Assembly (NCBI GenBank): GCA_021298835.1 | Contig: JAJTHG010000002.1 | Location: 1-64,000 of the forward strand | From: Gemmatimonadota bacterium | Lineage (GTDB): Bacteria; Gemmatimonadota; Gemmatimonadetes; Gemmatimonadales; Gemmatimonadaceae | Direction: 5' to 3' | DNA: 64,000 nucleotides | Shown: one piece after another, positions 40,057 through 64,000 of the stretch | Position numbering within the stretch: position 1 is the first letter of the stretch | Layout: every line of letters begins with the position of its first letter | Notes under the pieces: generated by a model | What the model was told of the DNA's origin: nothing | What the model saw: the letters and a program-made list of their open reading frames with translations, nothing else | Database searches by the model: none | Translations under genes and position numbers: made by a program

Positions 40057-41606
<1,550 letters not shown>

Positions 41607-46414: not shown

Positions 46415-46442
46415 GGGCAACTCCGGGGCGCGGGGGATTCGG

Positions 46443-46458: not shown

Positions 46459-46507
46459 GCTTCGGGGTATGGGGTCGCTCACCGGCGGACGCCGGGGCGA
46501 GCCTCGC

Positions 46508-46536
46508 AATATCGCGTGACCGGACCGGGGGTTCAA
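46508..46536 (-). promoter_or_regulatory. Predicted rpsA promoter
   Basis: Minus-strand TTGAAC (46536-46531), exactly 17 bases, GATATT (46513-46508), giving a leader of about 85-90 bases. The four-copy repeat at 46541-46588 abuts it on the upstream side. Confidence 0.45.
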
Positions 46537-46540
46537 GGGT

Positions 46541-46588
46541 CGGAGGATCCCCCGGAGGATCCCCCGGAGGATCCCCCGGAGGATCCCG
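46541..46588. repeat. Tandem repeat, 12-base unit x4, immediately upstream of the rpsA promoter
   Basis: Four copies of CGGAGGATCCCC (last base of the fourth differs) between the cmk stop and the predicted rpsA -35, ending four bases from it. Copy-number change would alter the region an UP-element or activator would contact. Confidence 0.9.
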
Positions 46589-46603
46589 CCGCTCCCGCCC
46601 CGG

Positions 46604-47272
46604 TCAGCCCGTCCGCGCCGCCGCCGCGCGCGCGAGGGCCACGATCCGCTCGACCTGCTCGACCTGCGTCAGGTACGTCGTGTCGATCAGCACCGCATCG
46701 GCCGCCTGCACGGTCTGCGTCGCATCGGCCGCGTCACGCTTGACCAGCGCGTCGGTCTCGGCGGCGATCTCGTCGTCGGCGGCCGGTCGCCCGAGGCGCT
46801 GGACGAGGCGGCGCCGAGCGCGTTCCCACGGGTCGGCGACGAGGAAGACCTTGAGCGTCGCCTCGGGGAAGACCGCCGTGCCCATGTCGCGCCCGTCCAC
46901 CACGACGTGATGGGCCTCCGCCGCCGCCCGCACCTGCGCGTTCACCCACGCGCGCACCGCCGGCATGCGGGCGACCAGCGAGACGTGCCCCGTCACCGCC
47001 GGCCCGCGGATCTCGTCGTCGCACGGCGCCCCGTCGAGGGTCGGGGCGACGCTCGTCCCGGCGTCGCGGCGTCCGACGCGGGCCGAGGCGGCGAGCACGC
47101 CCTCGTCCGTCCACGCTTCGGGCGGCGCGCCGGTGCGCAGCGTCGCCGCCGTCGCGGCACGATAGAAGGCGCCGCTGTCCACGTGGCGCCAGCCGAGCTC
47201 GCGGGCGACCCACTGGGCCGTGGAGCTCTTCCCCGACGCGGCGGGACCGTCAATGGCGACGACGAATGGCAT
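46604..47272 (-). CDS. cmk: Cytidylate kinase
   Basis: A 222-residue P-loop kinase phosphorylating CMP/dCMP. IDGPAASGKSSTA is the Walker A, HVDSGAFYRA the nucleotide-binding segment (SGAFYR in place of the common SGAMYR), and VVDGRDMGTAVFP the conserved VDGRD-GT. The cmk-rpsA neighbourhood is conserved in many bacteria. ATG 47272 has TAGGTT six bases upstream, made partly from the aroA stop codon. Confidence 0.95.
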   Translation of the reverse strand: MPFVVAIDGPAASGKSSTAQWVARELGWRHVDSGAFYRAATAATLRTGAPPEAWTDEGVLAASARVGRRDAGTSVAPTLDGAPCDDEIRGPAVTGHVSLVARMPAVRAWVNAQVRAAAEAHHVVVDGRDMGTAVFPEATLKVFLVADPWERARRRLVQRLGRPAADDEIAAETDALVKRDAADATQTVQAADAVLIDTTYLTQVEQVERIVALARAAAARTG

Positions 47273-47278
47273 GCGGCA

Positions 47279-47284
47279 AACCTA
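47279..47284 (-). promoter_or_regulatory. TAGGTT -10-like box of cmk built on the aroA stop codon
   Basis: Minus-strand TAGGTT (47284-47279); TAG is the aroA stop. Six bases separate it from the cmk ATG. Same arrangement as folC-hisS. Confidence 0.45.
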
Positions 47285-48558
47285 GCGCCGCGTCACGCGT
47301 GCGAGGTCGTCCCAGAAGCCGGGATAGCTGACGGCCACGCATCCCGGGTCGTCCACGACAATCCCGCCGCCGGTCGCGGCACCCAGCACGCCGAACGCCA
47401 TCGCCAACCGGTGATCGGCGTGCGTCACGACGCGGCCGACCAGCGGCGCGTCGGTCCCCTCGACGACGAGTCCGTCCTCGAGCTCGGACGCCGACACGCC
47501 GACGGCGCGGAGGTTGGCGACGACGGCGGCGATGCGATCGCTCTCCTTGCCGCGCAGCTCCCCGGCGTCGCGGATGGTCGTCGTGCCGGCGGCGCGGGCC
47601 GCCACGCAGGCGAGCAGCGGCAGCTCGTCGATCATCGCCGGAATGTCCGCCCCGCCGACCGTCACCCCCTGCAGCGCGGCCGGCTGCACGACGAGCGTGC
47701 CGATCGGCTCGGCGCCCGCCACCGTTTCGTCCTCGCGTGCCACGCGGGCCCCCATGGCCATCAGCGCGTCGAGGAACCCGGTGCGCGTGCGGTTGAGTCC
47801 GACGCCCGGCAGCCGCAGCACGCCGTCCCCCGCGAGTGTCGCCAAGGCGACGAAGAAGGCCGCGGAGGACGCATCGGCCGGCACGTCCAGGTCGAGCGGC
47901 CGCAGCGACGCGACCGGGTCGAGCGCCACCGTCGCGCCGCGGCGGGAGACCTTCGCGCCCATCGCCTGCAGCATCCGCTCCGTGTGGTCGCGCGACGGGG
48001 CGGGCTCGGTGACCGACACCGGCACCCCGGCGGCATGCCCGGCCAGCAGGACCGCGCTCTTGACCTGCGCGCTCGCCGTCTCAGCGCGCCACTCGATCGA
48101 CCGGAGCGCCCCGCCCTGCACCGTCATCGGGAGCCCCTCGCCCTTGGCACCGCCGAACGTCACCGTCGCCCCCATGGCCTCCAGCGGCCGCGCGACCCGC
48201 CGCATCGGGCGCCGGCTCAGGCTCGCGTCGCCCACGAACGTCGCGGCGAATGGGTGCGCGGCGACGAGGCCGGCAACGAGGCGCGCGGTCGTGCCGGAGT
48301 TGCCGCAGGCGAGCGGCGTCGGCGGGGCGACGAAGCCGCGACGGCCGACACCGGCGACGGTCACCGTCGGCCCGACGGGCGGGACCGTCACCCCCATCGC
48401 GCGCAGGACGCCCGCGGTCGAGCGCACGTCATCGCCCGCGAGCAGGCCACGGATCCGGCTCGTGCCGGTGGCGAGCGCAGCGAGGAGCAGCGCGCGGTGG
48501 CTGATGGACTTGTCGCCCGGCACGCGCAGCGTGCCGTCCACGACGAGCGGGCGTCGGC

Positions 48559-48571
<13 letters not shown>
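47282..48571 (-). CDS. aroA: 3-phosphoshikimate 1-carboxyvinyltransferase (EPSP synthase)
   Basis: A 429-residue shikimate-pathway enzyme. GDKSISHRALLLA (PEP-binding lysine), LACGNSGTTARL, GDASLSRRPMRR, and the C-terminal HADHRLAMAF are intact. The glycine motif reads GNSGTT and the RPMRR motif is standard. GTG 48571 (overlapping dapD by 13 bases) is used; a CTG at 48562 that overlaps the dapD stop as CTGA is an alternative. Continues the dap operon. Confidence 0.96.
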
Positions 48572-49427
<856 letters not shown>

Positions 49428-49431
<4 letters not shown>

Positions 49432-50315
49432 GCCAGCGCTCCCACGGCGCGCAAGGCGGCCCGCACCGCGTCCTCGTGCCGCCGGTCGAGGGGCACGAGC
49501 GGAAGCCGGAGGTGGTTGGCGATCCGCCCGAGCATCGCGAGCGCCGCCTTGACCGGCAACGGGTTCGACTCGATGAAGGCCGCGTCGAACCACGGCAGCA
49601 GCCGGAAGTGGAGCGCGCGGGCCCGCCCGACGTCGCCGGCCAGCGCCGCGTCGGCCAGCTCGGCCATCGCCCGCGGCGTCACGTTCGACGCGACCGAGAT
49701 CACGCCGTCCCCGCCGGCGGCGAGGAGGGGCAGCGTGAAGGCGTCGTCGCCGGAGAGCACGCTGAAGTGCGCCGGCCGGTCGGCGAGGATCGCCCCCATC
49801 TGCCCCCAGTTCGCCGAGGCCTCCTTGACGGCGACCACGTTGGGGATCGTCGCGAGCTCGAGCGTCGTGCGCGCCTCGAGGTTCACCCCGGTGCGGCCCG
49901 GCACGTTGTACGCGCACACGGGGAGCGGGGTCGCGTCGGCCACGCGGCGGAAGTGCTCGACGAGCGCCCGCTGCGGCGGCTTGTTGTACATCGGCGTCAC
50001 GTGCAGCAGATGGGTCGCGCCCGCGGCGTGCATCTCCCGGCTGAGCGCGACGGCGCGGGCGGTGTCGTTGGCCCCGGCGCCGGCCATCACCGGCACGCGG
50101 CCCTTGGTCTGGTCCACCACGACCTCGACGACGCGCCGCTGCTCGGCGGGGGTGAGCGTGGCGGCCTCGCCAGTCGAACCGACCGGAACGAGGAAATGGA
50201 TGCCCTCGGCGATCTGCCACTCGACGAGGGCGCGGAGGGCGGGCTCGTCGAGGATGCCGCCCGCGGTGAACGGGGTGACCAGCGCGGTGCCGCAGCCGGT
50301 GAGTCGGGTCGTCAT
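49428..50315 (-). CDS. dapA: 4-hydroxy-tetrahydrodipicolinate synthase
   Basis: A 295-residue TIM-barrel aldolase condensing pyruvate with aspartate semialdehyde. GSTGEAATL, the tyrosine motif YNVPGRTGVN, and the Schiff-base lysine in VAVKEASANW (about residue 163) are intact. Overlaps dapB (ATGA) and dapD (ATGA). Confidence 0.96.
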
Positions 50316-51022
50316 GTCGGGAGGGGATCGAGGCCGAGGACGTGGCGCATGGTGAACACGCCGCGACGCCCCGCGAGCCACGCCGCGGCCGAAAGCGCGC
50401 CGTCGGCGAAGACGCGGCGGTCGCGCGCCTCGTGGGTGAGCGTGACCTGCTCGAAGGGCGCGTCGGCCACGAGCGTGTGGGTCCCGGGGACGTGCCCCGT
50501 GCGGATGCTCGTGACCGGCACGTCGCGGCCGCTGCCTTCGGCCGCCGCCGCGGCGAGCGCGCGCGCGGTGCCGCTCGGGGCATCGCGCTTGGCGGCATGG
50601 TGCACGTCCACGAGATGCAGCGCGAGGCCCGGCACGCGGGCCAGCCGCGCCGCGGCCTCGCGGACGAGGTCGGTGAACAGGACCACGCCGGGCGAGAAGT
50701 TGGGGGCATGCAGCAGGGCACCCCCGGACGCTGCCACCTCCGCCGCGACGGCCGGCAGGTCGTCGTGCCACCCCGTCGTCCCGACCACCACCGGCACCCC
50801 GGCCGCGAGGCACGCCCGGATGTTCGCCGGCGCCGCGCCGGGCACGGTGAACTCGATCGCCACCTCGACCCCCGCCAGCGCGGCCGGACCCAACGGGCGA
50901 CCGGTCGCGTCGCCGTGCGCGCCGAAGTGCGCGACCACCGTGAAGCCGCGCTCCGGGGCGAGCGCCGCGACGGCGCGACCCATCCGGCCGTCACCGATGA
51001 CCGCCAGTCGCCGCCCGCTCAT
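50312..51022 (-). CDS. dapB: 4-hydroxy-tetrahydrodipicolinate reductase
   Basis: A 236-residue NAD(P)H reductase, at the short end for the family. GDGRMGRAVA dinucleotide loop, VGTTGW, APNFSPGVVLF, and the substrate lysine region HHAAKRDAPSGTA are present. ATG 51022 overlaps the lysC stop by four bases. Confidence 0.95.
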   Translation of the reverse strand: MSGRRLAVIGDGRMGRAVAALAPERGFTVVAHFGAHGDATGRPLGPAALAGVEVAIEFTVPGAAPANIRACLAAGVPVVVGTTGWHDDLPAVAAEVAASGGALLHAPNFSPGVVLFTDLVREAAARLARVPGLALHLVDVHHAAKRDAPSGTARALAAAAAEGSGRDVPVTSIRTGHVPGTHTLVADAPFEQVTLTHEARDRRVFADGALSAAAWLAGRRGVFTMRHVLGLDPLPT

Positions 51023-52380
51023 GCCGGCACCGCCGTTCCGAAGAAGGCGCCGTGCAGGCGGCGCAGCGCAGGCGTCACCTGGTCGCCGTCCACGAGGATG
51101 GTGAGGTTGATGCCCGTGGCGCTGAGCGACAGCATGTGCACGCGCAGCCCCTCGAGCGCCCCCAGCGCGGTGGCCATGGCCCCGGCATCGTCGGCGAGGC
51201 CGGTCCCCACGAGCGAGACGATGCCGCGCTGTCGCTCGACGGCGACGTCGCCGAGTTCGCGCAGGTCGGAGACGATGGCGTCGAGCCGCGTCGCGTCGTC
51301 AATGGTGACCGAGATGGACACCTCGGATGTCGCCACGACGTCCACCGCCGTGCGGTGCCGCTCGAAGACCTCGAAGACGCGCCGCGCGAAGCCGAGCGCG
51401 AACAGCATCCGCCCCGTGCGCACCTTCACGATGGTGACCCCGGCCTTGCCGGCCAGCGCGGTCACTGCGCGCACGGGGGCGTCGAAGGCGATGCGGGTAC
51501 CCGTCCCCTGCGGGTGGCGCGAGTTGAACACGAAGACCGGGATGCCCTTCCGCACCGCCGGCGCGATCGTGCTCGGGTGCAGCACCTTCGCGCCGAACGA
51601 GGCGAGCTCGGCCGCCTCGTCGAAGCGGATGGCCGGGATCAGGCGGGCCTCCGGCACCACGCGCGGATCGGCGGTCAGCATGCCGTCCACGTCGGTCCAG
51701 ATCTCGATCGCGTCGGCCTGCAGCGCGGCGCCGACGAGTGACGCCGAGTAGTCGGAGCCGCCGCGGCCGAGCGTGGTGGTCACACGCTGGCGCGTCCCGC
51801 CGACGAAGCCCGCCATCACCGGCACCCGGCCGTCGCGCAGCAGCGGCAGCAGGCGCGCGCGCGCGGACTCGGCGATCTCGTCCGGCTGCGGCACCGCCTT
51901 CGTGAAGGCGTCGTCGGTGATCATGACGTCGCGCGCATCCACCAGCTCGGCCGCGAGCCCGAGCCGGCGGAAGGCGTGCGTGCAGAGCAGTGCGGAGCAC
52001 AGCTCCCCCTTCGCGGCGATCGCGTCGAGGGCCCGCGGCGTGGTGAAACCGAGCGTGTGCAGGGCCTCGGCGAGCCGGGCGAGCTCGTCGAAGTGCGCGT
52101 CGAGCTCGGCACGGACCGCCGGCCATGCCGCCTCGCCGGCGAGCAGGGCCTCGCCCTCGCGCCGGTGACGCTCGCGCAGCTGTGCCACGGCACTCAGCGC
52201 CGCGATCAGCTGTCCCTCCGCCGCCTGGGCCGCGAGGCCGAGCAGCGCATTGGTGGCGCCGCCGAGTGCGGAGACGACGACGATCGGCTCGCGGGCGAGG
52301 CGTCCGCGCACGATCTCGGCGGCGGCCGTGATCGGGCCCGCCCCGGCCACCGAGGTGCCACCGAACTTGACGACGATCAC
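51019..52380 (-). CDS. lysC: Aspartate kinase (monofunctional, with two ACT domains)
   Basis: A 453-residue kinase starting the aspartate pathway. VVKFGGTSVA at the N-terminus, VSALGGATN, RGGSDYSASLVGAALQADAIEIWTDVDGMLTADPR in two adjacent motifs, and C-terminal ACT domains (about 300-450) that normally bind lysine as feedback inhibitor. No homoserine-dehydrogenase domain. GTG 52380 overlaps the asd stop (GTGA). Confidence 0.96.
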   Translation of the reverse strand: MIVVKFGGTSVAGAGPITAAAEIVRGRLAREPIVVVSALGGATNALLGLAAQAAEGQLIAALSAVAQLRERHRREGEALLAGEAAWPAVRAELDAHFDELARLAEALHTLGFTTPRALDAIAAKGELCSALLCTHAFRRLGLAAELVDARDVMITDDAFTKAVPQPDEIAESARARLLPLLRDGRVPVMAGFVGGTRQRVTTTLGRGGSDYSASLVGAALQADAIEIWTDVDGMLTADPRVVPEARLIPAIRFDEAAELASFGAKVLHPSTIAPAVRKGIPVFVFNSRHPQGTGTRIAFDAPVRAVTALAGKAGVTIVKVRTGRMLFALGFARRVFEVFERHRTAVDVVATSEVSISVTIDDATRLDAIVSDLRELGDVAVERQRGIVSLVGTGLADDAGAMATALGALEGLRVHMLSLSATGINLTILVDGDQVTPALRRLHGAFFGTAVPA

Positions 52381-53465
52381 GCCGCGACTCCCGGGACGAC
52401 GCCGTTGGCCAGCAGCCACTCGGCGTTCAGCACCGACGCTCCGGCCGCGCCCACGACCACGTTGTGGCCCATGGCGACCAGCCGAAGGTCGAGCACCGGG
52501 TCGGGACGGACGCGGCCGACGACGACGCTCATCCCGCCGCCGGCCATGACGTCGCGCCGCGGCTGCGGGCGATCGGTCGCCGCCGCCAGCACGAGGGGCG
52601 ACGCCGGGGCGCTCGGCAGGTCGCGCACGCCGGCGGCGCCGCGCCACGCGGCCAGCACCTCCAGCGCCTCCTCCGCGGTGGGACGGCCCGTGAAGGCCGC
52701 CGCGAGGCATGCGGTGTGCCCGTGCTCGACGGGGACGCGGGTGACCTGAGCGCTGACCGCGACGCCGGCACCCTCGATGCCCGTCGAACCCAACGTGCCG
52801 AGGAGCTTGGGTAGCTCGGCCTCGATCTTGGGCTCCTCGTCGGCGATCCAGGGGATGACGTTCCCCAGGATGTCGAGCGACGGCACCCCCGGATAGCCGG
52901 CCCCGCTGACGGCCTGCAGCGTCGTCACGAAGAGCTGGCGCAGGCCGAAGGCGTCGTGCAGCGGCTTGAGGGCCATCGCGATGACCGCCGCGGCGCAATT
53001 CGAGTTCGTCACCAGCGCCCCCGTCCAGCCACGGACGGCCCGCTGGTGCGCCAGCAGGTGCTGGTGGTCGGCGTTGACGTCCGGCACGACGAGCGGCACG
53101 TCCGGGGCCATGCGGTGGTTCTTCGCGTTCGAGAGCACCAGGCGTCCCGCGCGGGCGAAGGCGAGCTCGACGTCTCCGGCGACGCCGCTGTCGAGCGCCG
53201 AGAACACGATCGGCGCGGCGACGACGGCCGGGTCACACGCGGTGACGGGGAGGGCCGCCGCCGCCGCCGGCATGGGCGACGGATCGAGCCACGCCGTCGC
53301 CTGCGCGTACGGCTTGCCGGCGCTGCGCTCACTCGCCGCGACCTCGGCGAGCCGGAACCACGGATGCGCGGCGAGCAGGCGCACGAAGGTCTGCCCGACG
53401 GCGCCCGTCGCGCCGAGGACCGCCACCGGCAGGCGCTGCCCGCCCGGTGCCGGGCGCGGCGTCAC
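52377..53465 (-). CDS. asd: Aspartate-semialdehyde dehydrogenase, archaeal/fungal-like type
   Basis: A 362-residue NADP enzyme making aspartate semialdehyde. VLGATGAVGQTFVRLLAAHPWF at the N-terminus, ASERSAGK, the active-site cysteine in TNSNCAAAV (about residue 153), and the catalytic histidine in PVEHGHTA. The HPWF...SERSAGKPY pattern and length are those of the archaeal/fungal-like subfamily rather than the E. coli type. GTG 53465 overlaps the M20 gene stop (GTGA). Confidence 0.94.
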   Translation of the reverse strand: MTPRPAPGGQRLPVAVLGATGAVGQTFVRLLAAHPWFRLAEVAASERSAGKPYAQATAWLDPSPMPAAAAALPVTACDPAVVAAPIVFSALDSGVAGDVELAFARAGRLVLSNAKNHRMAPDVPLVVPDVNADHQHLLAHQRAVRGWTGALVTNSNCAAAVIAMALKPLHDAFGLRQLFVTTLQAVSGAGYPGVPSLDILGNVIPWIADEEPKIEAELPKLLGTLGSTGIEGAGVAVSAQVTRVPVEHGHTACLAAAFTGRPTAEEALEVLAAWRGAAGVRDLPSAPASPLVLAAATDRPQPRRDVMAGGGMSVVVGRVRPDPVLDLRLVAMGHNVVVGAAGASVLNAEWLLANGVVPGVAA

Positions 53466-54457
53466 GCGGCGAGCAGCGAGCGGACGATCCGCTCGTAGGC
53501 GTCCACCGCCGCGCGCAGCTCCTCGACGGCGATGTGCTCGTCCGGCGTGTGCGCGACGGAGATCGAGCCCGGGCCGAAGAGCAACGGTGTCCCCCAGCGA
53601 TCGAGCAGCGGGATGTCGGACGTGTACGAGACCGGCACGACGTCGAAGCCGTCGATGACGTGGAATCGCTGGGCGGGGATGTACGACCCCCACTCGAGCT
53701 CCGCGCGCCCGGCGGCCCACTGCTCGAGCGTCGCACGTAGCGGCGCGACGTCGCCCACGACGCGGAACATGACCTCGGACTCGCAGAGCCCGGGGATGAC
53801 GTTGGCCTCGGTGCCGCCGCGCAGGGTACCGATGTTGAACGTGGTGTCGCCGAGCACCGCGTCACGGGGAAAGTCGAGCTGGTGCAGGGTCGGCAGCAGC
53901 GCCAGCATCGGCTCGATCGCCGACCGGCCGAGATGCGGGTACGCGCTGTGCGCCTCGCGCCCGCGGACGCGGACCATCACGCGCTGGGAGCCCTTCGCCC
54001 CGCTGGCAAGCTTCGACTCCGTCGGCTCGCCGTTGACCAGGAACCGCGAGGTGGCGGGAAGGTGGTTGGCGGCCCTCGCCCCGTCGGAGCCCTTCTCCTC
54101 GCCCACGACCATGAGCACGTCCACGCGGTCCTCGCCCGCCAGCGCCAGACGGTCGGCGGCCGCGAGCATGGCCGCGGCGATCCCCTTGGCGTCACAGGCG
54201 CCGCGTCCCTTGAGCATGCCGCCCTCGAGCGCGGGCGGCACGTACGGGGGCACGGTGTCGAGGTGCGTGGAGAGTGTCACCGCTCCGCGGCCGCGGGAAG
54301 CCCAGACGTTGCCGCGGCCGGGGGTGACCTCCTGCACGGTGACGTTCCATCCGCGCGAGACCAGCCAACGGGCGACGAAGTCCACGGCCTTCCCTTCCTT
54401 GCCGGTTGGGGACTCGATGGCGAGCAGTTCGGATGCGAGCGCGACGACGTCGGTCAT
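53462..54457 (-). CDS. dapE: M20-family amidohydrolase, probable succinyl-diaminopimelate desuccinylase
   Basis: A 331-residue dinuclear zinc hydrolase. Ligand motifs STHLDTVP, GRGACDAKG, catalytic VVGEEKGSDG, and a C-terminal HTPDEHIAVEEL are present, with a dimerisation domain near 165-270. Sequence alone could also be ArgE, LysK or another N-acyl-amino-acid hydrolase. Position as first gene of the operon with asd, lysC, dapB, dapA and dapD makes DapE the best reading. ATG 54457 has TATCTT nine bases upstream and no Shine-Dalgarno. Confidence 0.75.
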   Translation of the reverse strand: MTDVVALASELLAIESPTGKEGKAVDFVARWLVSRGWNVTVQEVTPGRGNVWASRGRGAVTLSTHLDTVPPYVPPALEGGMLKGRGACDAKGIAAAMLAAADRLALAGEDRVDVLMVVGEEKGSDGARAANHLPATSRFLVNGEPTESKLASGAKGSQRVMVRVRGREAHSAYPHLGRSAIEPMLALLPTLHQLDFPRDAVLGDTTFNIGTLRGGTEANVIPGLCESEVMFRVVGDVAPLRATLEQWAAGRAELEWGSYIPAQRFHVIDGFDVVPVSYTSDIPLLDRWGTPLLFGPGSISVAHTPDEHIAVEELRAAVDAYERIVRSLLAA

Positions 54458-54507: not shown

Positions 54508-55635
54508 ATGGCCTCAACCCGTTTTCGCTTCCCGTGCGCCGACGCGCGGCACCTGCCGCGGCACCTGCCGCGGCACCTGCCGCGGCGGCGCCCGGTCGTG
54601 CTCGGACTCGTCGCCGCCGCGCTCGTCGCCTGCGGCGAGCGGGCCCCGGAGCTGACCCCCGGCACCGGGCAGTTCCGTGGGGCCGAGGTGGCGGCGCTGC
54701 GGCCCAAGCCGACCTTCACGCTGCGCGACACCGACGGGCGTCCCTACGACTTCGCCCGCGAGACGGCCGGGGCGGTGACGCTGCTCTTCTTCGGCTACAC
54801 GCACTGCCCCGACATCTGCCCGGTGCACCTCGCGAACATCGGTGCGGTGCTCAAGCGGCTCGACCCGGCGGATCGGCAGCGCATCCGCGTGGTCTTCGTG
54901 ACGACCGATCCCGACCGGGACTCGGCCGCCGTCATCCGGCGCTGGCTCGACAACTTCGACCCCGCGTTCGTGGGCCTTCGCGGCTCGCTCGACGAGGTCA
55001 ACGCCATCCAGGCGCAACTGCGGCTGCCGCCAGCCGCCGTGACGACGAACGCGAAAGGCCAGGTCGAGGTGAGTCACGCCGCCGTCGTCCTCGCCTTCGA
55101 CGCCGAGGGGCTGTGGCGGCTGTCGTATCCCTTCGGCACCCGGCAGGACGACTGGGCGCACGACCTGCCGCTGCTCGTCCGCGGTCGGTGGCGAGCGGCC
55201 GGCCCGGCGGCAGCACGGGATGCGTCGGGCGGCGAGACGATGTTCGTCGGGAAGCTCCGGTTCGACGACGCCCGGGTCCCGGTGCTGCGCGGGACCGCGG
55301 CGCTCGCGGCCTACGCCACGATCCGCAACAGCGGCGCCGACGACTGGCTGCTTGGCGTCGAGGCCCCGGGGCTGGCCAGGACCGCCATGCTGCACGGCCA
55401 GTCCCGCTCGGTGCTCGGTCAGGCGACGATGACGATGCTCGACTCGCTGCCGCTCCCGTCGGGCGGGACGCTGGCGCTCGCCCCGGGCGGGCAGCACGTG
55501 ATGCTCGAAGGCCTGATGCGGGAGCCGGACCCGGGCGACCGCGTTCCGCTCGTCTTCCGATTCCGGCTGGCCGGACGCGTGTCGGTGCCGGCGCGCGCCG
55601 TGCCGCCGGACGCCGCGCAGGGTTCCCTCCGATGA
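54508..55635 (+). CDS. SCO1/SenC-PCuAC fusion lipoprotein, copper chaperone for cytochrome oxidase
   Basis: A 375-residue protein. N-terminus has HLPR repeats, then a hydrophobic stretch and lipobox-like LVACGE (cysteine at about residue 42). Residues 60-220 are a SCO1/SenC thioredoxin fold with the copper-binding CPDIC (about residue 109) and a distal histidine. Residues 245-355 are a PCuAC (DUF461) domain with ligands of the H...M...HVM type (MLHGQSRSVLG, MTMLDSLP, GGQHVMLEGL). Both families deliver Cu(I) to the CuA site of cytochrome oxidase; having both in one chain is unusual. Overlaps ctaG (ATGA). Confidence 0.88.
   Translation: MASTRFRFPCADARHLPRHLPRHLPRRRPVVLGLVAAALVACGERAPELTPGTGQFRGAEVAALRPKPTFTLRDTDGRPYDFARETAGAVTLLFFGYTHCPDICPVHLANIGAVLKRLDPADRQRIRVVFVTTDPDRDSAAVIRRWLDNFDPAFVGLRGSLDEVNAIQAQLRLPPAAVTTNAKGQVEVSHAAVVLAFDAEGLWRLSYPFGTRQDDWAHDLPLLVRGRWRAAGPAAARDASGGETMFVGKLRFDDARVPVLRGTAALAAYATIRNSGADDWLLGVEAPGLARTAMLHGQSRSVLGQATMTMLDSLPLPSGGTLALAPGGQHVMLEGLMREPDPGDRVPLVFRFRLAGRVSVPARAVPPDAAQGSLR
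54548..54583 (+). repeat. In-frame 12-base tandem repeat x3 in the SCO1-PCuAC gene
   Basis: Three exact copies of GGCACCTGCCGC encoding HLPR repeats ahead of the signal sequence. Multiple of three, so frame-neutral. The repeat extends the basic n-region of the lipoprotein signal. Confidence 0.9.
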
Positions 55636-55661
55636 ACGGCATCCAGATGAACGGTATCCAA
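55632..55661 (+). repeat. Tandem duplication of the ctaG start region (15 bases x2)
   Basis: ATGAACGGCATCCAG followed by ATGAACGGTATCCAA: two near-identical 15-base units, each with its own ATG in the same frame. It doubles the available start codons. Confidence 0.85.
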
Positions 55662-56462
55662 TGGTGGTGCGCGGCCCGCGGCGACGCGTGGACGTGGACC
55701 TGGACCCCGTATCCTGGGGTGTGGCTGGCGGTCGCGGTCGCAGCCCTCGTGACGTGGCGCCTGCGGGGGTTCGGCCCCGGGGACAGCACGCCGACGGAGC
55801 CCTGGTGGCGGCGCGTCGCGGCGTGGGCCGCGGTCGTGCTGCTGTGGGTCACGCTGGACTGGCCGGCCGGGGCCCTCGGGGCCGGATACCTCGCCAGCGT
55901 GCACGCGGCTCAGTATCTGTCGCTCGCGATGCTCGTCCCGTCGCTCGCGCTGCTGGGCGTTCCGACCGGGGCCTGGGAGCGCCTTGCCCGGCGGCCCGCG
56001 CTCGTACGGGGGCTCGCGGTCGCTACGCAACCGTTCCGGGCGATGCTGGCGTTCACGATCGTAATGGTCTTCTCGCACCAGCCGTGGCTGGTGGACACGC
56101 TCATGGCGACGCCGGCGGGGAGCTTCGCGCTCGACGCCTCGTGGCTCGCGTCGGGCCTCGTGTTCTGGTGGGGCCTCTGCGCGCCGGTGCCGGCGCGCCC
56201 CACGTTCGCCCCGCTGCTCAAGCTCTCCTACGTGTTCGCGGGCACCGTGGCCCACGTGTTCATCGGCATGTGGATGCTCATCGCCGACTACCCGATCTTC
56301 GCCACCTACGAACTGGCCCCGCCGATCGGCACGATGACCGCCCGCGCGGACCAGCAGTGGGCCGGCGGGGTCTTCCTGCTGGTCGGCAGCCCGCTGGTGC
56401 TGGTGGTGATGACGCTGATCTTCTTCCGGTGGATCGGCACGGGGGAAGAGCCGACCGGCTGA
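55632..56462 (+). CDS. ctaG: Cytochrome c oxidase assembly factor CtaG (caa3_CtaG family)
   Basis: A 276-residue polytopic protein with about seven membrane segments. YLASVHAAQYLSLAMLVPSLALLG, FSHQPWLVD, and GTVAHVFIGMWMLIADYPIF with conserved membrane histidines match the caa3-type CtaG family, which assists copper insertion into the CuB centre. Follows and overlaps the SCO1-PCuAC gene, giving a two-gene copper-delivery operon. The first ten codons are a tandem duplication (MNGIQ twice), so translation could begin at 55632 or 55647. Confidence 0.88.
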   Translation: MNGIQMNGIQWWCAARGDAWTWTWTPYPGVWLAVAVAALVTWRLRGFGPGDSTPTEPWWRRVAAWAAVVLLWVTLDWPAGALGAGYLASVHAAQYLSLAMLVPSLALLGVPTGAWERLARRPALVRGLAVATQPFRAMLAFTIVMVFSHQPWLVDTLMATPAGSFALDASWLASGLVFWWGLCAPVPARPTFAPLLKLSYVFAGTVAHVFIGMWMLIADYPIFATYELAPPIGTMTARADQQWAGGVFLLVGSPLVLVVMTLIFFRWIGTGEEPTG

Positions 56463-56478: not shown

Positions 56479-59400
56479 CTACACGGTGATCGCCAGCCCG
56501 CGGTAGATCCGCGCGCGGTAGCGCGAGTCCTTCTCCTCCGGCAGCGGTGCGGCCGCGAGCAGCACCGCGTGCGCGAAGCGCTCGATCTCCTCGGCCTGTT
56601 CGGCGGCGTCGCGCGGCTCCTCGCTGCGCATCCGGCGCGTGAGGTTGACCTGGTTCACCGGGACGTTCGTCCACAGCCGCTCGTTCTCGACACCGAGTGT
56701 GGCCGTGAGCGCGTGGAGAGTGGTCTTCACGAAGTTCGCGATCGCGAACTGCGCGGGGGTACCGCCGACCGGCACGTCCGGAGAGACGAGGATGAGCCGG
56801 GTGCCCTTGTAAAGCGACACCTTCCGGGCGACGCGGAAGTGGTGGGTGAGGTTCCCCTCGATCAGCTCGGCGAAGCCGGCTGCGTCGAGGTGGTCGTGCC
56901 CGTCAATGCCGAAGAGGACGCGGGGGATCGGGGTGAAGGGCGTGCTGACGACGGCCGAGGGACGACCGTGCTCGACGAACGCGGCGTCCATACCCGCCTC
57001 GAGGTCGTCGCCGACGACGCGATAGACGACCCGGTCGTGCCCGAGGGCGCGTCCCATCGCCGCGCGGATGCCGGCCTCGGCGGCGGGGGTCCGCAGCAGC
57101 ACCACGACGGTGCCGACGTGGGCCTCGGCCAGGAAGAGGCGCGTCGCCCCCGCGATCTGCTCGTGCAGGTGGTCCCCGAGCAGCCAGACGGTGTCGCCCT
57201 CCATCCGCCGAAGGCGCTCGGGCTTGGCGCGCCCGAACAGCTCGCGTTCCGTGATGGTGCGCTCCTGGTGCAGGCCGCCCGACGGCTCGAACGTCTCGCC
57301 GGAGATGGCGCGATCGGCCATGAAGAACACCGTGGCCAGCGCGACGTCGGTCTCGCTCGGCATGTGCCGCAGGTGCAGCATGCCGAGCACCCCCTTCCGG
57401 ATCTTCTCCGCCTCGACGTCGAGCTCGGCCTGACTGAGGAACGGCTCGGCGGGGACGGGCAGTGAGGCCAGCCAGTGCTCGGCCGCCTCGCGCGCGCCGG
57501 GGCCGGCGGCGAGGAGGACGCCGCCGTGCGCCAGGCGATCCACCAGCCGACGCGCGATCGCCGGGGTGAGCAGGTGGCGCACGGACGAGTACTGCGCGTC
57601 GGCGCCGGATTCGCCCGAGAGCCGGGGCGCGAGGTCGCGAAGCGGGGCCGGCGTCTCGGCCGCGCCGAGCGCGGCGAGGTCGTTCGCCTGGGTGGCCGCG
57701 AGCAACTGGTCGAGCGTGGTCCCCGCGTCGAGGGCGCGCAGGAAGGCCCCGTGGACGAGATTGAGCCGCTTGTTCTCGTGAATGAGGCGCGCCCGGCGGG
57801 CGAAGAGCCCCGCCTTGCCGTCCTTGCCGGCGAGCCGCTGGCCCTCGACCGGACCGGGCGCGATGGCGTTGATCTGCACCTCGGGGCCGACGAAGCGCGC
57901 GAGGTTCTCGACGAGCGCCCGCTGCCCCGCCTTGGAGACGGCGTAGTCGGCGCGGTTCGGGTAGGGCACGGCGATGTACTTCTCGCCGCCGAAGTACGAG
58001 CTGACGTTCAGAATGTAGCCCGCGCCCTGCCGCTTCATGAGCGGCACGACCTTCTCGATCAGCGAGTAGTTCGACGTGAGGTTGGCGAGCAGCGTCGTGC
58101 GCCACGCGTCGGGCGGCATGTCCACGACCATCTGCTCGGCGCCGGCGACGCCGGCGTTGTTGACGAGGAAGTCGAGCCGTCCGAACTCGGCGAGCGTGCG
58201 GTCCACCGCGCGCCCGAGGGCGGCCTCGTCACCGGCATCCACGTCGGCCATCATGAGGACGCGCTCCTGCGGCCGGTAGTACCCGATGTCCTCGAGCTCG
58301 CGGATGATGCCGTCGCGCATCTCGCGCAACTGGTCGTCGCGCCGGGCCGTGAGCATGACGCGCGCGCCGGCGATGGCGAGCAGGCGCCCGAGCTGGCCCC
58401 CGATGCCGGCGGAGCCGCCGGTGATGAGCGCCGTCTTGCCGAGGTGCAGCCCCATCAGCGACTCGATCCACCCGAAGGTCGCCTTATGGGAGCCGGTGGC
58501 GTCCACGATGCTGGGCGGGAGGTACAGGTTGACCTGGTTGATGCGCCGCTTCGTGTAGAGCAGCCGTGCCGCCTGGCTGGCGGCGAACGGCAGCCCTTCG
58601 TCCTCCGCGTTGGTCCAGCGCACGATCTGGTTCGACCACTCGACGGTCTTCCGGGCGCGCATGCGGACCTGCACCTCGGACTCGTCGCGCCAGATGCGGA
58701 CGAGTTCCTCCATCGCGGCGCGCAGGATGTCGGCATAGGCGTTGGCCCCGCCGTCGGACCCGTTGCTGAGGAACACCGTCCGGGGATACGACCCGCGCGG
58801 CGCGGCGGTCTTCCAGAAGCGCGTGAGCTCGCGGGCGATGGCGAGCGCCCCGCAGAGCTCGGCCGTCAGGAAGGCGTCCACCTCGGCGTCCGTGGCCTCG
58901 GCCAGCGGGGCGTGGAAGCGCCAGGCGCCGAAGGCAGGCATCACGATCGCCCCGTGGAGGACGCCCTCCCGCGCCCGCTGCTCGGTGAGCACGGCGGACA
59001 GGGTCTCGGGACGGCGTCGGTCGAACAGCACCGGAGTGATGCGGCGGTCACGGTCGTCGGGCTGCAGCGCGGCCTGTGCCGCCTGCACGCCCTCCTCGGA
59101 GCCGAGGCCGAGGAGGACGTGCGCGCCGCACCCCGCCTGGATGCGCGAGACGGTGAGCGCGTCGGCAACCTGATCGCCGGCGGCGACGAGGATCGTGACG
59201 CCGCCGCCGTCCACCGTGCGCAGCTCGGGGCGCGAGACGAACGTCGAGCGCGACTCCTGCCGCACGGTCATGCCGTGCGTCACCTCGAGGGTATGGTTGT
59301 TCAGGGCGGCCGACTCCTCGCTGCCGAGGAAGACGATCGCGTTGGCGACGTCCTCGACCGTCGGCAGCTGGACGGGGGTCCCGTCGGGTGCCTGGCGCGC

Positions 59401-60207
59401 GAGGGTCATGAGGGACGTCATCTCGGCGTGCGTCGTGCCGGCCGGCGCCTGGCGCAGGCCGTCCATCGCCGCGAAGACGTTGCGGATCCGCTCGCTCTCG
59501 ATCGGCCCGGGGAAGACGGTGTTGACGCGGATGCCCCGAGGCCCGAGTTGCAGCGACAACTGCCGGGAGAACGCGTTCAACGCCGCCTTGGGAAGCACGT
59601 ACGCGGCCCGGCCGTAGTACTGCGTGCGCGAGAAGATCGTCGAGACGTGGATGACCGACGCGCCCGGCCTGAGGTGCGGGGTGACGGCGCGGACGACGTT
59701 CCACGACAGCCCGAGGAGGTTGCCCGCCGCGTCGCGTGCCGTCTCGGTGTCGGCGCTGCCCTGCGCCCGCAGGAGCTCGAGCTCGTCGCGCGTGAGCGGG
59801 ACGTCCTCCAGCGTCTGCTTGGGCCCGGCCGATCCGGCGTTGTTGACCACCACGTCGATGCGGCCGAACTGCTGCATCGCGGCCTCGATCCCCCACCGCA
59901 CCTGCCCAGGATCGGCGGCGTCGAACGGCAGCACCGCGGCGGCCTCCGCGCCGGCGCGCGTGCGCTTGAGGAGCCGCTTGCGGGCGTCCTCGAGCTTCGC
60001 GCGGTTGCGCCCGACCATGATCACCGTCGCTCCTTCCTCGAGATAGCGGCGGGTGATGGTCTCGCCGATGTTGCCGGCCGCCCCCGTGATCAGCGCGATC
60101 TTGCCGGCGAGCCGGCCGCCGCGGGCCGCGCCGACCTTTGCCCGGGTCGTCGTCTTGCGCTTGGGCACGTCCGGGGTGGCGTCGAGTTCCTTGGGGCGGC
60201 GGGGCAT
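56479..60207 (-). CDS. mcr: Bifunctional malonyl-CoA reductase (3-hydroxypropionate bicycle)
   Basis: A 1242-residue protein co-linear with Chloroflexus malonyl-CoA reductase (about 1220 residues). Two short-chain-dehydrogenase halves: the N-terminal half has TGAAGNIG (41-48), NNAG (122-125) and Y203-xxx-K207; the C-terminal half has TGGSAGIGG (596-604), NNAG (683-686) and Y755-AVS-K759. In the known enzyme the C-half reduces malonyl-CoA to malonate semialdehyde and the N-half reduces that to 3-hydroxypropionate, both with NADPH. The C-terminus (RIYRGLAITV) matches too. A basic ~30-residue N-terminal leader is extra. Located 57 bases after propionyl-CoA synthase, which uses its product. No Shine-Dalgarno and no promoter visible. 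Confidence 0.95.
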   Translation of the reverse strand: MPRRPKELDATPDVPKRKTTTRAKVGAARGGRLAGKIALITGAAGNIGETITRRYLEEGATVIMVGRNRAKLEDARKRLLKRTRAGAEAAAVLPFDAADPGQVRWGIEAAMQQFGRIDVVVNNAGSAGPKQTLEDVPLTRDELELLRAQGSADTETARDAAGNLLGLSWNVVRAVTPHLRPGASVIHVSTIFSRTQYYGRAAYVLPKAALNAFSRQLSLQLGPRGIRVNTVFPGPIESERIRNVFAAMDGLRQAPAGTTHAEMTSLMTLARQAPDGTPVQLPTVEDVANAIVFLGSEESAALNNHTLEVTHGMTVRQESRSTFVSRPELRTVDGGGVTILVAAGDQVADALTVSRIQAGCGAHVLLGLGSEEGVQAAQAALQPDDRDRRITPVLFDRRRPETLSAVLTEQRAREGVLHGAIVMPAFGAWRFHAPLAEATDAEVDAFLTAELCGALAIARELTRFWKTAAPRGSYPRTVFLSNGSDGGANAYADILRAAMEELVRIWRDESEVQVRMRARKTVEWSNQIVRWTNAEDEGLPFAASQAARLLYTKRRINQVNLYLPPSIVDATGSHKATFGWIESLMGLHLGKTALITGGSAGIGGQLGRLLAIAGARVMLTARRDDQLREMRDGIIRELEDIGYYRPQERVLMMADVDAGDEAALGRAVDRTLAEFGRLDFLVNNAGVAGAEQMVVDMPPDAWRTTLLANLTSNYSLIEKVVPLMKRQGAGYILNVSSYFGGEKYIAVPYPNRADYAVSKAGQRALVENLARFVGPEVQINAIAPGPVEGQRLAGKDGKAGLFARRARLIHENKRLNLVHGAFLRALDAGTTLDQLLAATQANDLAALGAAETPAPLRDLAPRLSGESGADAQYSSVRHLLTPAIARRLVDRLAHGGVLLAAGPGAREAAEHWLASLPVPAEPFLSQAELDVEAEKIRKGVLGMLHLRHMPSETDVALATVFFMADRAISGETFEPSGGLHQERTITERELFGRAKPERLRRMEGDTVWLLGDHLHEQIAGATRLFLAEAHVGTVVVLLRTPAAEAGIRAAMGRALGHDRVVYRVVGDDLEAGMDAAFVEHGRPSAVVSTPFTPIPRVLFGIDGHDHLDAAGFAELIEGNLTHHFRVARKVSLYKGTRLILVSPDVPVGGTPAQFAIANFVKTTLHALTATLGVENERLWTNVPVNQVNLTRRMRSEEPRDAAEQAEEIERFAHAVLLAAAPLPEEKDSRYRARIYRGLAITV

Positions 60208-60264
60208 GGACCGGCGGGGCTGGGGGACGCGGCGAGCGAGTACGCGGCGGGGCGCGCGGGCGGA

Positions 60265-63200
60265 TCAGGCGTGGGCGCGGGCGGCCCACTCCTGGTAGAG
60301 CTCGTCACGGCTGGTGAGGCCGAGACGCGGCAAGGCATGGTTCACGACGTACGTGGCACCGGCGTGGGTGTTGTCCCACATCGCCTGATGCGCGGCGGGC
60401 AGCTCGTGCCACGCGACGACCGTCGGCTCGGTCACCTCGAGCTGGCCGGCGGCGATCATGTCGTTCATCCGCACGACCTCGTACGCGTTGCACAGGTGCG
60501 TGCCGGCGATCGTGGCGGTCGGCATGAGGATGCGGCGCTGCCGCATCCAGACCTGCGGGGCGTAGAACGTGTAGCGGCGGCCGGCCATGTCCTCGCAATA
60601 CACCACGCGCCCCGTGAACGGCTTCACAAGCGACGTCGAGGCAGCGAGCGCATCGTGGCCGGCGCGCTCGATGACGAGGTCCGGATAGCCGCGCGGGTTG
60701 TCGGCCGAGCGCAGGAACCGCCCGACGGCGCTGCCGAACGGCTTCATCGTGCGCTCCTGGAAGTCGCGCACCGCCTCCTTGAAGCGCGCCGTCTCGCGCT
60801 TCGCGTCGGGGAGCGGCGGGAGGGCCGAGGGCCAGTCGAAACCGTCGCCCTCGCGGCGGCGGAGGTCTTCGAGCGACACCACGCCGCGCACCGCGTCGCC
60901 GAACCCGAGCGACTGCACGAACTCGCGCTGCGCGTCGGTGGCGGTGGCGACGACGAGTCGCCCCCCCGCCGCGCGCACGGCCTCGATCGCCTCGAGACCC
61001 ACCGGGTCGAGCAGGTCGGCTGTGCCGGCGCCGTAGTAGAGCAGGACCGCCTCGCCCGCGCGCAGGCGCGCGCGCCGGAGCATGACGTCGGGGGCGACCG
61101 CCCCCGCCTTGCCGACGAAGGAGAACCAGTAGCCGCTCGTCGCCCCGTAGAACGTGAGCGTGCCCCCCTCGGCCAGCATCTGGAAGGAGCGCGGGAAGGC
61201 CTCCTGCCCCGCGTGCGACACGGCGTAATCGGCCAGCCGCCCACCCGTCTGGGCGCGCATTGCCTCGAGCAGCGGCACGCCCGCGCGCTCCCACGCGGCG
61301 ATACCGGCGGGATCGCCCGGCACCGGCGTGAAGGCGCCGACCCACGCGGCATCCTTGCGGTTGATCGCACCGACGGCGCCTTGGGCCTTCACGAAGGCGG
61401 CGCGATCGGGGTTGGAGACGAGCCCGACGGCGTCGAGCCCGTTGCGCGCCGCCGACTTGAGGGCCTCGAGGCCGGTGCCGGTGGCGGCGCCCTCGACGAA
61501 GATGGTCTTCCCGGCCTCGACCTGCAGGGTCGTGAAGAGCGCGCGCACCACGGTGCCGAGGTTGAGCACGTACGATCCGGCCGATTCGAGCGTGAGATCC
61601 GGCGGCAGCGGATGCAACTGCGGTGCCTGCGCCAGCAGGAACTGCTGGTGGCTGCCGGTGTCGGTCTCGTAGCCCTGGATCGCGAAGTCGGCGTACATCG
61701 GGTCCCGCGCCGCGAGCGGCGAGAGGAGGTCGCTCTGGCCCGAGTAGATCGTCACGAGATCGCCGACCTTGAGTCGCCCTTCCCGCTTCGCCTCGGCGCC
61801 CAGCGAAGCGACGAGCCCCACGCCGCCCGAACCGGTGACCTGGTAGTCGAGATCATGGTTCTCGAACGGCGAGACGGGGATGCCGGTGATCGCCCAGATG
61901 TCGTTGAAGTTCACTTCCGACGCGAGCACGTACACCACCGCCTCGTTCGGTCCGGGCGTGGGCACCGGCACGAGGATCTCGCGCTCGGCGTCTCTGGGGA
62001 GACCGTGCGCGTTCGCGCCGGTGGCCGGGTCCTTCACCACGGCGTGCCCGTACTGCCACTCGGGGATCGGCGTGAGGCCGGGGAAGAACGGGCTCCCCAC
62101 CGGCAGCAGCGTGCCGGCGGCGACGAGCGCGGGCACGTGCTCGGGCGTCGGCGCAGTGGCGCGACGGGTCGGGAGCGGGGCGCTGCGCTTGTCCTGGAAG
62201 GCCTGAATGCCCGCCTTGCCCCCAGCGGGATCAATGACGGCCTCGGCGAAGAGGCGCGCCTCGCGCTCGAGGCCGGTGTCGAAGCCGAGCGTCCATCCGG
62301 TCCGCACCGCGTCCAGGATGCGGGCGGCCACGGGGCCGCGCCCGACGGCGTCGGCCTGCGCGAGCAGGCGGCGCGTCTCGGCATCGGCCAGCGCGCCGTC
62401 GAGCGTGGCGCGCCCGGGAGCCTTCCACGCCGAGGCCGCGGTCTTGCGGGCCGCGAAGGTGCGGGCCACGAGGCCGTCGCCCCGGGGCGCCGCGACGTAC
62501 TCGGCCGCGAGACGCACGGCGAGCGACACGACGTCGTCGGCGTCGCCGGCGATGGCCTGCACGAGGCCGTCGGCCGCGAGGTCGTCGGCGCCGTAGGTGC
62601 GGCCCCCGACGACGTACTCGAGCGCGCGGACGATGGGCTGCGCATGGCCGGCGAGCTCGAGCAGCCGCGGCAACCGCTGGGTGCCGCCGTAGCCGGGGAG
62701 CAGGTTGAGGCGCACCTCCGGCTGGCCGAACGTCGCGTGCGCCTCGGCGACGCGCACGTGGCAGGCCATCGCGAACTCCATCCCGCCGCCGAGCGCGACG
62801 CCGTTGATCGCGGCGATCGCGGGTTTGTCCATCGCCTCGATCTTCCGGAAGGCGAGGTGCGCGTTGTTCGGCAGCGGCAGCGCCTCTTCGAGGGTGCGCA
62901 CTTCCTCGAGCAGCTGGCGGATGTCGGCGCCCGCGACGAACGACGCGGTCCCCTGCCCTGTGAAGACGACCGCCTTCACGTCGTCGCGCCGCGCGACGTG
63001 GTCCACGACGATGTTGAGCTCGTCGAGCGCGCGCTCGTTGAGCGCGTTGACCGGCGGGTTGGTGACGGTCACCACCGCGACGCGCGCGTCGCGCGTCAGC
63101 GGGTGGTACTGGATGCGGAAGTAGCGGTAATCCTCGAAGAGCTGCTGCTCGTCGGCCACCTTCTGGCGCGCGAGCCAGTCGGTGACGATCGCGCGGAGCT

Positions 63201-64000
63201 CGGCGATGCTCTCCGGGTTGCGCAGGGTCGAGGCATCGCCGACGTCGGTCCCCTCGACGATCGCGCGGACCATGCGCCGCATGTACTTGCCGCTGCGCGT
63301 CTCGGGAAACTGCGAGACCTCGATGAAGTCCTCTGGAACGGCGGTCGCCCCCTTCTCCTGGCGGACGATCTCGATGAGGCGCCGGCGGTCGTCGCTCGTC
63401 AGCCGCCGACCGGGGGCGGGCTTCACGAAGGCGAGGGGGGTGAGCCCCTTCTGCGCATGCGGCGCGCCGACGACGATGACGTTGCCCACCGGGGAGTCCG
63501 GGTTCACCTGCTTGTCGCGCAGGATCGCCCCCTCGATCTCCTCCGTCCCGAGCCGGTGGCCGGAGACGTTGATGACGTCGTCGGAGCGGCCGTGCAGCGA
63601 GAAGCCGCCGTCGGCGTACTGCACCGCGAAGTCGCCCTGCGTGTAGGCGGTGCGGCCCTGCCAGCGCGTCCAGTACGTCGCGGTGTAGCGGGCGAGGTCG
63701 CCCTTCCACGTGGGCGCCACGCGCGGCCCGTCCACGACGAACCCCTCGGCGTCGCCCCAGATCGTGCGGCAGAGGTACGGGTACGGCGCGCCGATGACGA
63801 TCTCGCCCTTCTCGCCCAACTCGGCCGGCCGCGCGACGACGCGGCCGTCGGGCCCGGGCTCGCTGTCGGCGACCCAGACATCGCCCTCGATCCACGGGAG
63901 CGGGTACGTGTGCGCGTCGGCGCGCAGCGGGAAATCGCCGTTGCCGAACAGGTGCGTCCAGACGATGCCGCCGTGCTCCGTCGCCCAGTACGAGTTGATG
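60265..64000 (-). CDS. pcs: Propionyl-CoA synthase, trifunctional (3-hydroxypropionate bicycle), N-terminus outside window
   Basis: At least 1244 residues; the frame is open at the window end and about 575 residues are expected beyond. Three parts in the order of Chloroflexus propionyl-CoA synthase. The end of a 3-hydroxypropionyl-CoA synthetase runs to about 63130 (YWATEHGG at the edge, GRSDDVINVSGHR, and the A10 lysine in SGKYMRR). An enoyl-CoA hydratase spans about 63100-62200 (AGADIRQLL, GVALGGGMEFAMA, PGYGGTQRLPR). A zinc-less medium-chain acrylyl-CoA reductase spans about 62050-60265 (SEVNFNDIWAITG, GAATGTG). Together they convert 3-hydroxypropionate, CoA, ATP and NADPH to propionyl-CoA without releasing acrylyl-CoA. 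Base composition does not differ from neighbours. Confidence 0.95.
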   Translation of the reverse strand, partial: INSYWATEHGGIVWTHLFGNGDFPLRADAHTYPLPWIEGDVWVADSEPGPDGRVVARPAELGEKGEIVIGAPYPYLCRTIWGDAEGFVVDGPRVAPTWKGDLARYTATYWTRWQGRTAYTQGDFAVQYADGGFSLHGRSDDVINVSGHRLGTEEIEGAILRDKQVNPDSPVGNVIVVGAPHAQKGLTPLAFVKPAPGRRLTSDDRRRLIEIVRQEKGATAVPEDFIEVSQFPETRSGKYMRRMVRAIVEGTDVGDASTLRNPESIAELRAIVTDWLARQKVADEQQLFEDYRYFRIQYHPLTRDARVAVVTVTNPPVNALNERALDELNIVVDHVARRDDVKAVVFTGQGTASFVAGADIRQLLEEVRTLEEALPLPNNAHLAFRKIEAMDKPAIAAINGVALGGGMEFAMACHVRVAEAHATFGQPEVRLNLLPGYGGTQRLPRLLELAGHAQPIVRALEYVVGGRTYGADDLAADGLVQAIAGDADDVVSLAVRLAAEYVAAPRGDGLVARTFAARKTAASAWKAPGRATLDGALADAETRRLLAQADAVGRGPVAARILDAVRTGWTLGFDTGLEREARLFAEAVIDPAGGKAGIQAFQDKRSAPLPTRRATAPTPEHVPALVAAGTLLPVGSPFFPGLTPIPEWQYGHAVVKDPATGANAHGLPRDAEREILVPVPTPGPNEAVVYVLASEVNFNDIWAITGIPVSPFENHDLDYQVTGSGGVGLVASLGAEAKREGRLKVGDLVTIYSGQSDLLSPLAARDPMYADFAIQGYETDTGSHQQFLLAQAPQLHPLPPDLTLESAGSYVLNLGTVVRALFTTLQVEAGKTIFVEGAATGTGLEALKSAARNGLDAVGLVSNPDRAAFVKAQGAVGAINRKDAAWVGAFTPVPGDPAGIAAWERAGVPLLEAMRAQTGGRLADYAVSHAGQEAFPRSFQMLAEGGTLTFYGATSGYWFSFVGKAGAVAPDVMLRRARLRAGEAVLLYYGAGTADLLDPVGLEAIEAVRAAGGRLVVATATDAQREFVQSLGFGDAVRGVVSLEDLRRREGDGFDWPSALPPLPDAKRETARFKEAVRDFQERTMKPFGSAVGRFLRSADNPRGYPDLVIERAGHDALAASTSLVKPFTGRVVYCEDMAGRRYTFYAPQVWMRQRRILMPTATIAGTHLCNAYEVVRMNDMIAAGQLEVTEPTVVAWHELPAAHQAMWDNTHAGATYVVNHALPRLGLTSRDELYQEWAARAHA

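Follow-up and report, generated by a model that had tools for sequence, protein, structure and literature searches.

Introduction

The 3-hydroxypropionate (3-HP) bi-cycle of Chloroflexus aurantiacus, encoded by mcr (Caur_2614), pcs (Caur_0613), mch-mcl-mct, smtAB and meh (PMC3150298), is among the closest described counterparts of the genes discussed here: a propionyl-CoA synthase gene (pcs) and a bifunctional malonyl-CoA reductase gene (mcr) lying in tandem in a Gemmatimonadota bacterium. The window, as we call the whole stretch analysed, consists of the first 64,000 nucleotides of contig JAJTHG010000002.1 (97,213 bp, here C42), which belongs to a genome of 3.46 Mb in 82 contigs that is 91.6% complete. 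Like C. aurantiacus, this host has a fused MCR and a fused PCS, an mct-mcl-mch cluster with a divergent meh, a type-II reaction centre and no detected RuBisCO. Contrary to C. aurantiacus, its pcs and mcr are adjacent, smtAB is absent, its PCS falls outside the Chloroflexota clade, and the host, which belongs to another phylum, has a pathway predicted from its genes.

Outside Chloroflexota, all bi-cycle genes have been reported in two Gemmatimonadales metagenome-assembled genomes (MAGs), together with Burkholderiales MAGs (Garritano et al. 2022, PMC9802188), a report that the initial annotation of this DNA had not taken into account. Those genomes resemble the host in carrying bi-cycle genes within Gemmatimonadota and a similar glyoxylate-salvage cluster. 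However, the Gemmatimonadales sets were reported as complete and tied to inorganic electron donors, whereas the host lacks smtAB and is predicted to be phototrophic. The partial 3-HP pathway of Erythrobacter NAP1 and Porphyrobacter (PMC10674011; 6eqo) also places pcs-mcr in an aerobic anoxygenic phototroph, for which CO2 co-assimilation was proposed, but Erythrobacter NAP1 has an Mct match of only 41%, in contrast to the real Mct/Mcl/Mch/Meh set of the host. Candidatus Kentron, whose second-cycle enzymes were likewise read as assimilatory rather than autotrophic (PMC6593406), is the mirror image of the host genome, being without MCR and PCS and drawn with Smt. MCR/PCS pairs in proteobacterial phototrophs (PMC10674011 and its references) and the use of a partial pathway for assimilation (PMC6593406) were therefore already known, and the lake phototrophs studied in PMC8547001 are described there as having no carbon-fixation genes. 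What is apparently new is the loss of smtAB in one lineage, an ancestral syntenic pcs-mcr locus, a strong tie of pcs and mct to phototrophy within the phylum, and a cultured strain that probably carries all of the signature genes.

The reading that we prefer, at a probability of roughly 0.68, is that the pair represents a vertically inherited Gemmatimonadaceae pcs-mcr operon with which the host takes up CO2 alongside organic substrates, powered by light, in a bi-cycle left open at the SmtAB step.

The pcs-mcr pair

The mcr gene (56479..60207, minus strand) is an intact open reading frame of 1242 aa whose product is predicted to convert malonyl-CoA to 3-HP. Residues 32-1242 align with the solved full-length enzymes 8hi4 (1199 bits) and 8hjw (1144 bits). 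All 20 of the 20 residues mapped from the Roseiflexus enzyme (RfxMCR; residue list from PMC10470521) are identical and cover both SDR halves, R1164 falling outside the stretch of alignment compared and outside this count. The conserved catalytic residues are T190/Y203/K207 and S737/Y749/R752/Y755/K759/R805, corresponding in RfxMCR to the T165-Y178-K182 triad and to S731, Y743, R746, Y749, K753 and R799.

A spacer of 57 bp (60208..60264) separates mcr from pcs, which occupies 60265..64000 of the minus strand and continues past the window edge, the complete gene spanning 60265-65676 of the same contig (L003:265-5676) and encoding 1803 aa. The initial annotation was thus right about the enzyme, although the window itself holds only about two thirds of it, with the N-terminus cut off. 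From its residue 585 through the C-terminus, the solved structure 6eqo is matched by the in-window part (1750 bits). The CoA ligase, enoyl-CoA hydratase (3-HP-CoA dehydratase) and acryloyl-CoA reductase domains are fused in a single chain of about 1800 aa, as defines PCS, and the protein aligns end to end and without breaks with the PCS of Erythrobacter NAP1 and Chloroflexus islandicus. Both enzyme identities proposed earlier are borne out by these matches, no catalytic residue being lost on alignment, and so is the description of two large minus-strand genes in tandem exactly 57 bp apart, an arrangement far beyond chance. The G+C content of both genes is that of the window.

Among 80 pcs loci (61-82% identity) retained from 340 candidate stretches, and counting those with room to judge, mcr directly follows pcs in 53/54 loci of Pseudomonadota and 2/2 of Gemmatimonadota (55/56 together), but in 0/11 of Chloroflexota and 0/2 of Bacillota; the gap has a median of 93 bp among the fetched loci. 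Outside Chloroflexota, such a tandem is the usual layout. Adjacency is consequently no novelty, and the separation of the two genes noted for Chloroflexus in the initial annotation agrees with the Chloroflexota loci, whereas the idea of genes limited to a few marine proteobacteria gives way to widespread ones, found at no fewer than 80 loci. Because the tandem order is conserved across loci, pcs and mcr are probably transcribed together. Several stretches from Burkholderiales, together with Gemmatimonadetes S09.Bin022, carry a single supercluster, meh / smtA-smtB-mct-mcl-mch-pcs-mcr (L014, L049, L067, L074, L018).

Phototrophy in the host and in the phylum

The contig also encodes a polynucleotide phosphorylase, which shares 72-75% identity with those of three named Gemmatimonadaceae/Gemmatimonas assemblies, versus 48-51% with those of Proteobacteria, Chloroflexus and Aneurinibacillus, in line with the Gemmatimonadota-type host suspected in the initial annotation. 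The genome contains pufL and pufM (PF00124 twice), and its PufM, BchX, BchZ and BchI score above the NCBIfam cut-offs, so that by gene content the host is a predicted type-II anoxygenic phototroph, a trait that had not been foreseen. The RuBisCO large subunit had no match in the host genome, whereas the same query scored 58-63% in five other phototrophic Gemmatimonadota; this query was a chimera of SmtA joined to spinach RbcL, and its matches were separated by query range. A phototroph of another family (G201, L255; family f5) carries a true RuBisCO (60%) together with pcs-mcr.

In a sample of 395 genomes of the phylum, where protein searches scored the best few candidates per genome, pcs was present in 16 and mct in 12, each of which has pcs as well, while 44 genomes had reaction-centre genes scoring above the cut-off. 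Phototrophs account for 13/16 of the pcs carriers versus 31/379 of the other genomes (Fisher p 3e-11), and for 11/12 of the mct carriers. Counted by genus, the figures for pcs are 8/9 versus 6/129 (p 1e-8), with the provisos that genera are not fully independent and that MAG incompleteness blurs absences. Within the phylum, pcs and mct thus go with phototrophy, as an association and not as proof.

The rest of the pathway and the missing SmtAB step

The genome encodes most of what would be needed downstream of the pair. There are two copies of methylmalonyl-CoA mutase, one of them adjoining a B12-binding subunit, a MeaB-like GTPase and a carboxylase subunit (neighbours named from sequence), and a methylmalonyl-CoA epimerase above its cut-off. 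On contig C76, mch, mcl and mct lie on one strand with meh divergent, in the order of Chloroflexus islandicus, to whose cluster the products are 82% (Mcl), 71% (Mct), 70% (Mch) and 65% (Meh) identical. Mct matches the solved Mct structures 7xkg/8apq (E ~1e-190) and scores 661.9 against TIGR04253 (cut-off 725), and Mcl matches 4l7z (3e-199). A second lyase, on C77, was rejected as the bi-cycle Mcl, being a CitE/RipC-type paralogue at 34%. The potential to turn acetyl-CoA and bicarbonate into propionyl-CoA, put forward in the initial annotation, is consistent with the intact MCR and PCS, and the mutase and epimerase would extend it to succinyl-CoA. Succinate dehydrogenase and fumarase, which would lead on to malate, are to be expected as members of the tricarboxylic acid cycle.

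Three carboxylase genes on the minus strand of the window are candidates for feeding the pathway: a biotin carboxyl carrier-type protein (36750..37247; a candidate acyl-CoA carboxylase subunit whose NCBIfam biotin-carrier matches lie below the equivalog cut-offs), a biotin carboxylase subunit of the AccC type (38512..40056; NF006367, 625.2 bits, cut-off 597) and a carboxyltransferase subunit of the PccB/MmdA family (40056..41606; TIGR01117, 818.7 bits, cut-off 998.8). Two GlcD-like FAD dehydrogenases elsewhere in the genome (L106:2342-3709 and L105:135-1781, both minus) are possible sources of glyoxylate.

The initial annotation had listed the partners that a working bi-cycle would need. The mutase, the epimerase, the malyl/methylmalyl/citramalyl-CoA lyase, Mct and Meh were all found, but not the succinyl-CoA:malate CoA-transferase, an absence that had not been anticipated. 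Those clusters of Chloroflexota, Burkholderiales and other Gemmatimonadota that were seen whole have a pair of CoA-transferase genes in the meh-mct interval, at the position of smtA and smtB (Caur_0179 and Caur_0178 in C. aurantiacus, PMC3150298). The host interval is an intact 112 bp, empty of smtAB. No SmtA or SmtB orthologue is found among the three family-III CoA-transferase (PF02515) genes of the assembled genome, namely Mct, a gene on C48 and a gene on C79. The C48 gene was rejected as Smt, giving a 32% partial match.

Neither were smtAB found at the meh-mct site of G173, another Gemmatimonadaceae genome, which a concatenated Mcl/Mct/Mch/Meh tree places as sister of the host genome (SH-aLRT 96). 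The simplest account is that smtAB was lost once, in an ancestor that the two share. With SmtAB missing, the gene content of the host leaves the canonical autotrophic bi-cycle open.

Other gene combinations exist around this step. Two phototrophic Gemmatimonadaceae of genus g4, G299 (L250:7868-11430) and G352 (L251:1879-5389), have smtA-smtB-mcl, but neither mct nor mch was seen in these stretches, nor was pcs found, which amounts to a malate-to-glyoxylate module standing alone. A Rhodopila locus (L054) has pcs-mcr followed by mch-mct and mcl, with no smtAB within the stretch examined.

History of the locus

Sequence trees place the window PCS and MCR among those of Steroidobacteraceae, Nevskiaceae and Rhodocyclaceae, the nearest PCS sequences being from Rhodocyclaceae/Steroidobacteraceae (77-82%), and Chloroflexota PCS form one separate clade. 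The surroundings of the pair, in turn, are shared within the family. On one side lie recN and a 603-aa gene with no Pfam match (contig 66232-68043, L003:6232-8043, just past the window), on the other dapE-asd-lysC-dapB-dapA-dapD, part of the conserved flank rpsA-cmk-aroA-dapD-dapA-dapB-lysC-asd-dapE (44660..54457, minus). This arrangement recurs, whole or partial, in G124, G195, G235 and G293, with the whole dap-side order beside pcs-mcr in G195. The 603-aa gene (56-61% identity) stands beside pcs in seven other Gemmatimonadaceae, the remaining three being G173, G402 and G267.

Taking the sequence tree alone, a recent acquisition from a proteobacterium would be suggested. We reject it, because, given the recN-PCS-MCR-dapE locus conserved in the family, an export to proteobacteria is the simpler explanation. 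An ancestral pcs-mcr in Gemmatimonadaceae, exported to Gammaproteobacteria, would fit best, and replacement of the genes in place is possible. A clade uniting the syntenic Gemmatimonadaceae PCS to the exclusion of proteobacteria is rejected (p-AU 2e-88, the group having been chosen after the tree was seen). In genus g19, PCS groups with Burkholderiales/Alphaproteobacteria, and no dap or recN genes were found beside pcs-mcr within the stretch examined; there must therefore have been more than one transfer.

Between dapE and mcr, the window carries SCO1/PCuAC and CtaG genes (54598..56462, plus; Pfam), with no counterpart found at this position in the relatives compared. In G195, mct is in two pieces (L188:7517-8719) through a frameshift or an assembly error, the cluster being otherwise complete.

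Proposed role and alternative explanations

From enzyme identities, residues, genome content, synteny and the absence of SmtAB from the assembled genome, all of them properties of the sequence, we infer flux, direction, light coupling, glyoxylate source and carboxylase substrate as follows. MCR would reduce malonyl-CoA to 3-HP, which PCS would convert to propionyl-CoA; propionyl-CoA carboxylase, methylmalonyl-CoA epimerase and mutase would then yield succinyl-CoA for the tricarboxylic acid cycle, the net outcome being a C4 acid from acetyl-CoA and two bicarbonates. The mch, mcl, mct and meh products would combine propionyl-CoA with glyoxylate, ending as pyruvate and acetyl-CoA, and would in this way serve glyoxylate uptake. 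SmtAB is the step that would make malyl-CoA and regenerate glyoxylate from the first cycle; because it appears to have been lost in this lineage, leaving the bi-cycle open, another source of glyoxylate would be needed, such as glycolate oxidation. Photophosphorylation would drive the carboxylation of acetyl-CoA and propionyl-CoA, so that CO2 would be co-assimilated and anaplerosis served while the cells grow on acetate, propionate, 3-HP, glycolate or glyoxylate. Co-assimilation has likewise been proposed in print for Porphyrobacter, which upregulates its 3-HP genes in daytime (PMC10674011), and for Chloroflexus, as cited in PMC10674011 and PMC6593406. The initial annotation had left the choice between autotrophy and co-assimilation; the latter is better supported, and the former is weakened because the canonical bi-cycle is not closed without SmtAB. 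Several points weigh against our interpretation: in a genome that is 91.6% complete, a distant smtAB could have escaped assembly, although in both the host and G173 the meh-mct site is intact and has no smtAB; the carboxylases can be placed at family level only; and the GlcD-type genes, candidates for the glyoxylate source, score below NCBIfam cut-offs.

A closed autotrophic bi-cycle, in which the C79 transferase replaces SmtAB, makes malyl-CoA and permits photoautotrophy without RuBisCO as in Chloroflexus, seems rather unlikely. This 415-aa protein shares 38-42% identity with SmtA and SmtB (about 40% with SmtA and 39% with SmtB in one comparison) and keeps an Asp in the active-site motif region of the family. 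Among 47 genomes, its orthologues (68-70%) were seen in just two, G173 and G402, which share a genus, G173 being the other genome with an smtAB-less cluster. The tree sets C79 next to SmtA plus SmtB (94/89 support), but outside their clade, on long branches flagged by the tree tool, which led us to reject it as a genuine SmtA or SmtB. There are resemblances to succinate-glutarate and formyl-CoA transferases as well, no pathway gene lies near it, and the lack of an mct from G402 reduces its tie with the pathway to two genomes. C79 is a candidate Smt replacement, no more. We also doubt that the pair serves only reductant disposal or the assimilation of 3-HP, acrylate or propionate, with no meaningful net CO2 fixation. 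Many Pseudomonadota have pcs-mcr without mct, and Aneurinibacillus has pcs without a neighbouring mcr, from which parts of the route appear to work outside a cycle. However, making 3-HP from malonyl-CoA is needless for pure 3-HP catabolism, the second-cycle cluster is retained in the host, and the carriers in the phylum are nearly all phototrophs. An assembly or binning artefact, with the locus coming from a proteobacterial or Chloroflexi genome, is very improbable: even though the nearest sequences are proteobacterial, Gemmatimonadaceae genes flank both sides in an order common to at least four other members of the family, and G+C matches the window. The mis-assembly from Chloroflexi that the initial annotation had flagged is rejected on the trees, in which Chloroflexota PCS form a clade of their own, and on synteny. 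Aneurinibacillus itself (Bacillota; L023, L065) has a full-length pcs at 61-62% and no adjoining mcr, its PCS being sister to the Chloroflexota clade.

A cultivated carrier and concluding remarks

The single-contig genome G124 combines pcs-mcr, mch-mcl-mct-smtAB-meh and a reaction centre, and is probably that of the cultured Gemmatimonas groenlandica TET16, which would place the signature set in a cultured strain. The main text of the TET16 description (PMC7844134) has no mention of 3-HP, CO2 or autotrophy, and in the literature, subscription journals lying outside the scope, the species and hydroxypropionate are co-mentioned only in a soil and sediment survey.

Taken as one compound proposal, phototrophic Gemmatimonadaceae might be a second phylum-level home of light-driven 3-HP carbon fixation, with pcs-mcr ancestral in the family and exported to Gammaproteobacteria, and with the cycle re-wired in the host and its sister by a single CoA-transferase in place of SmtAB; in all its parts together, we hold this to be improbable. 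RuBisCO-less phototrophic Gemmatimonadota have so far been described as photoheterotrophs, and the present host appears to be one with nearly the whole Chloroflexus 3-HP pathway, minus the closing step SmtAB. CO2 fixation in the light by a Gemmatimonas would be directly testable in a strain from culture collections, and the SmtAB-less lineage, set against the smtAB carriers, may allow co-assimilation to be compared with a closed cycle in nature.

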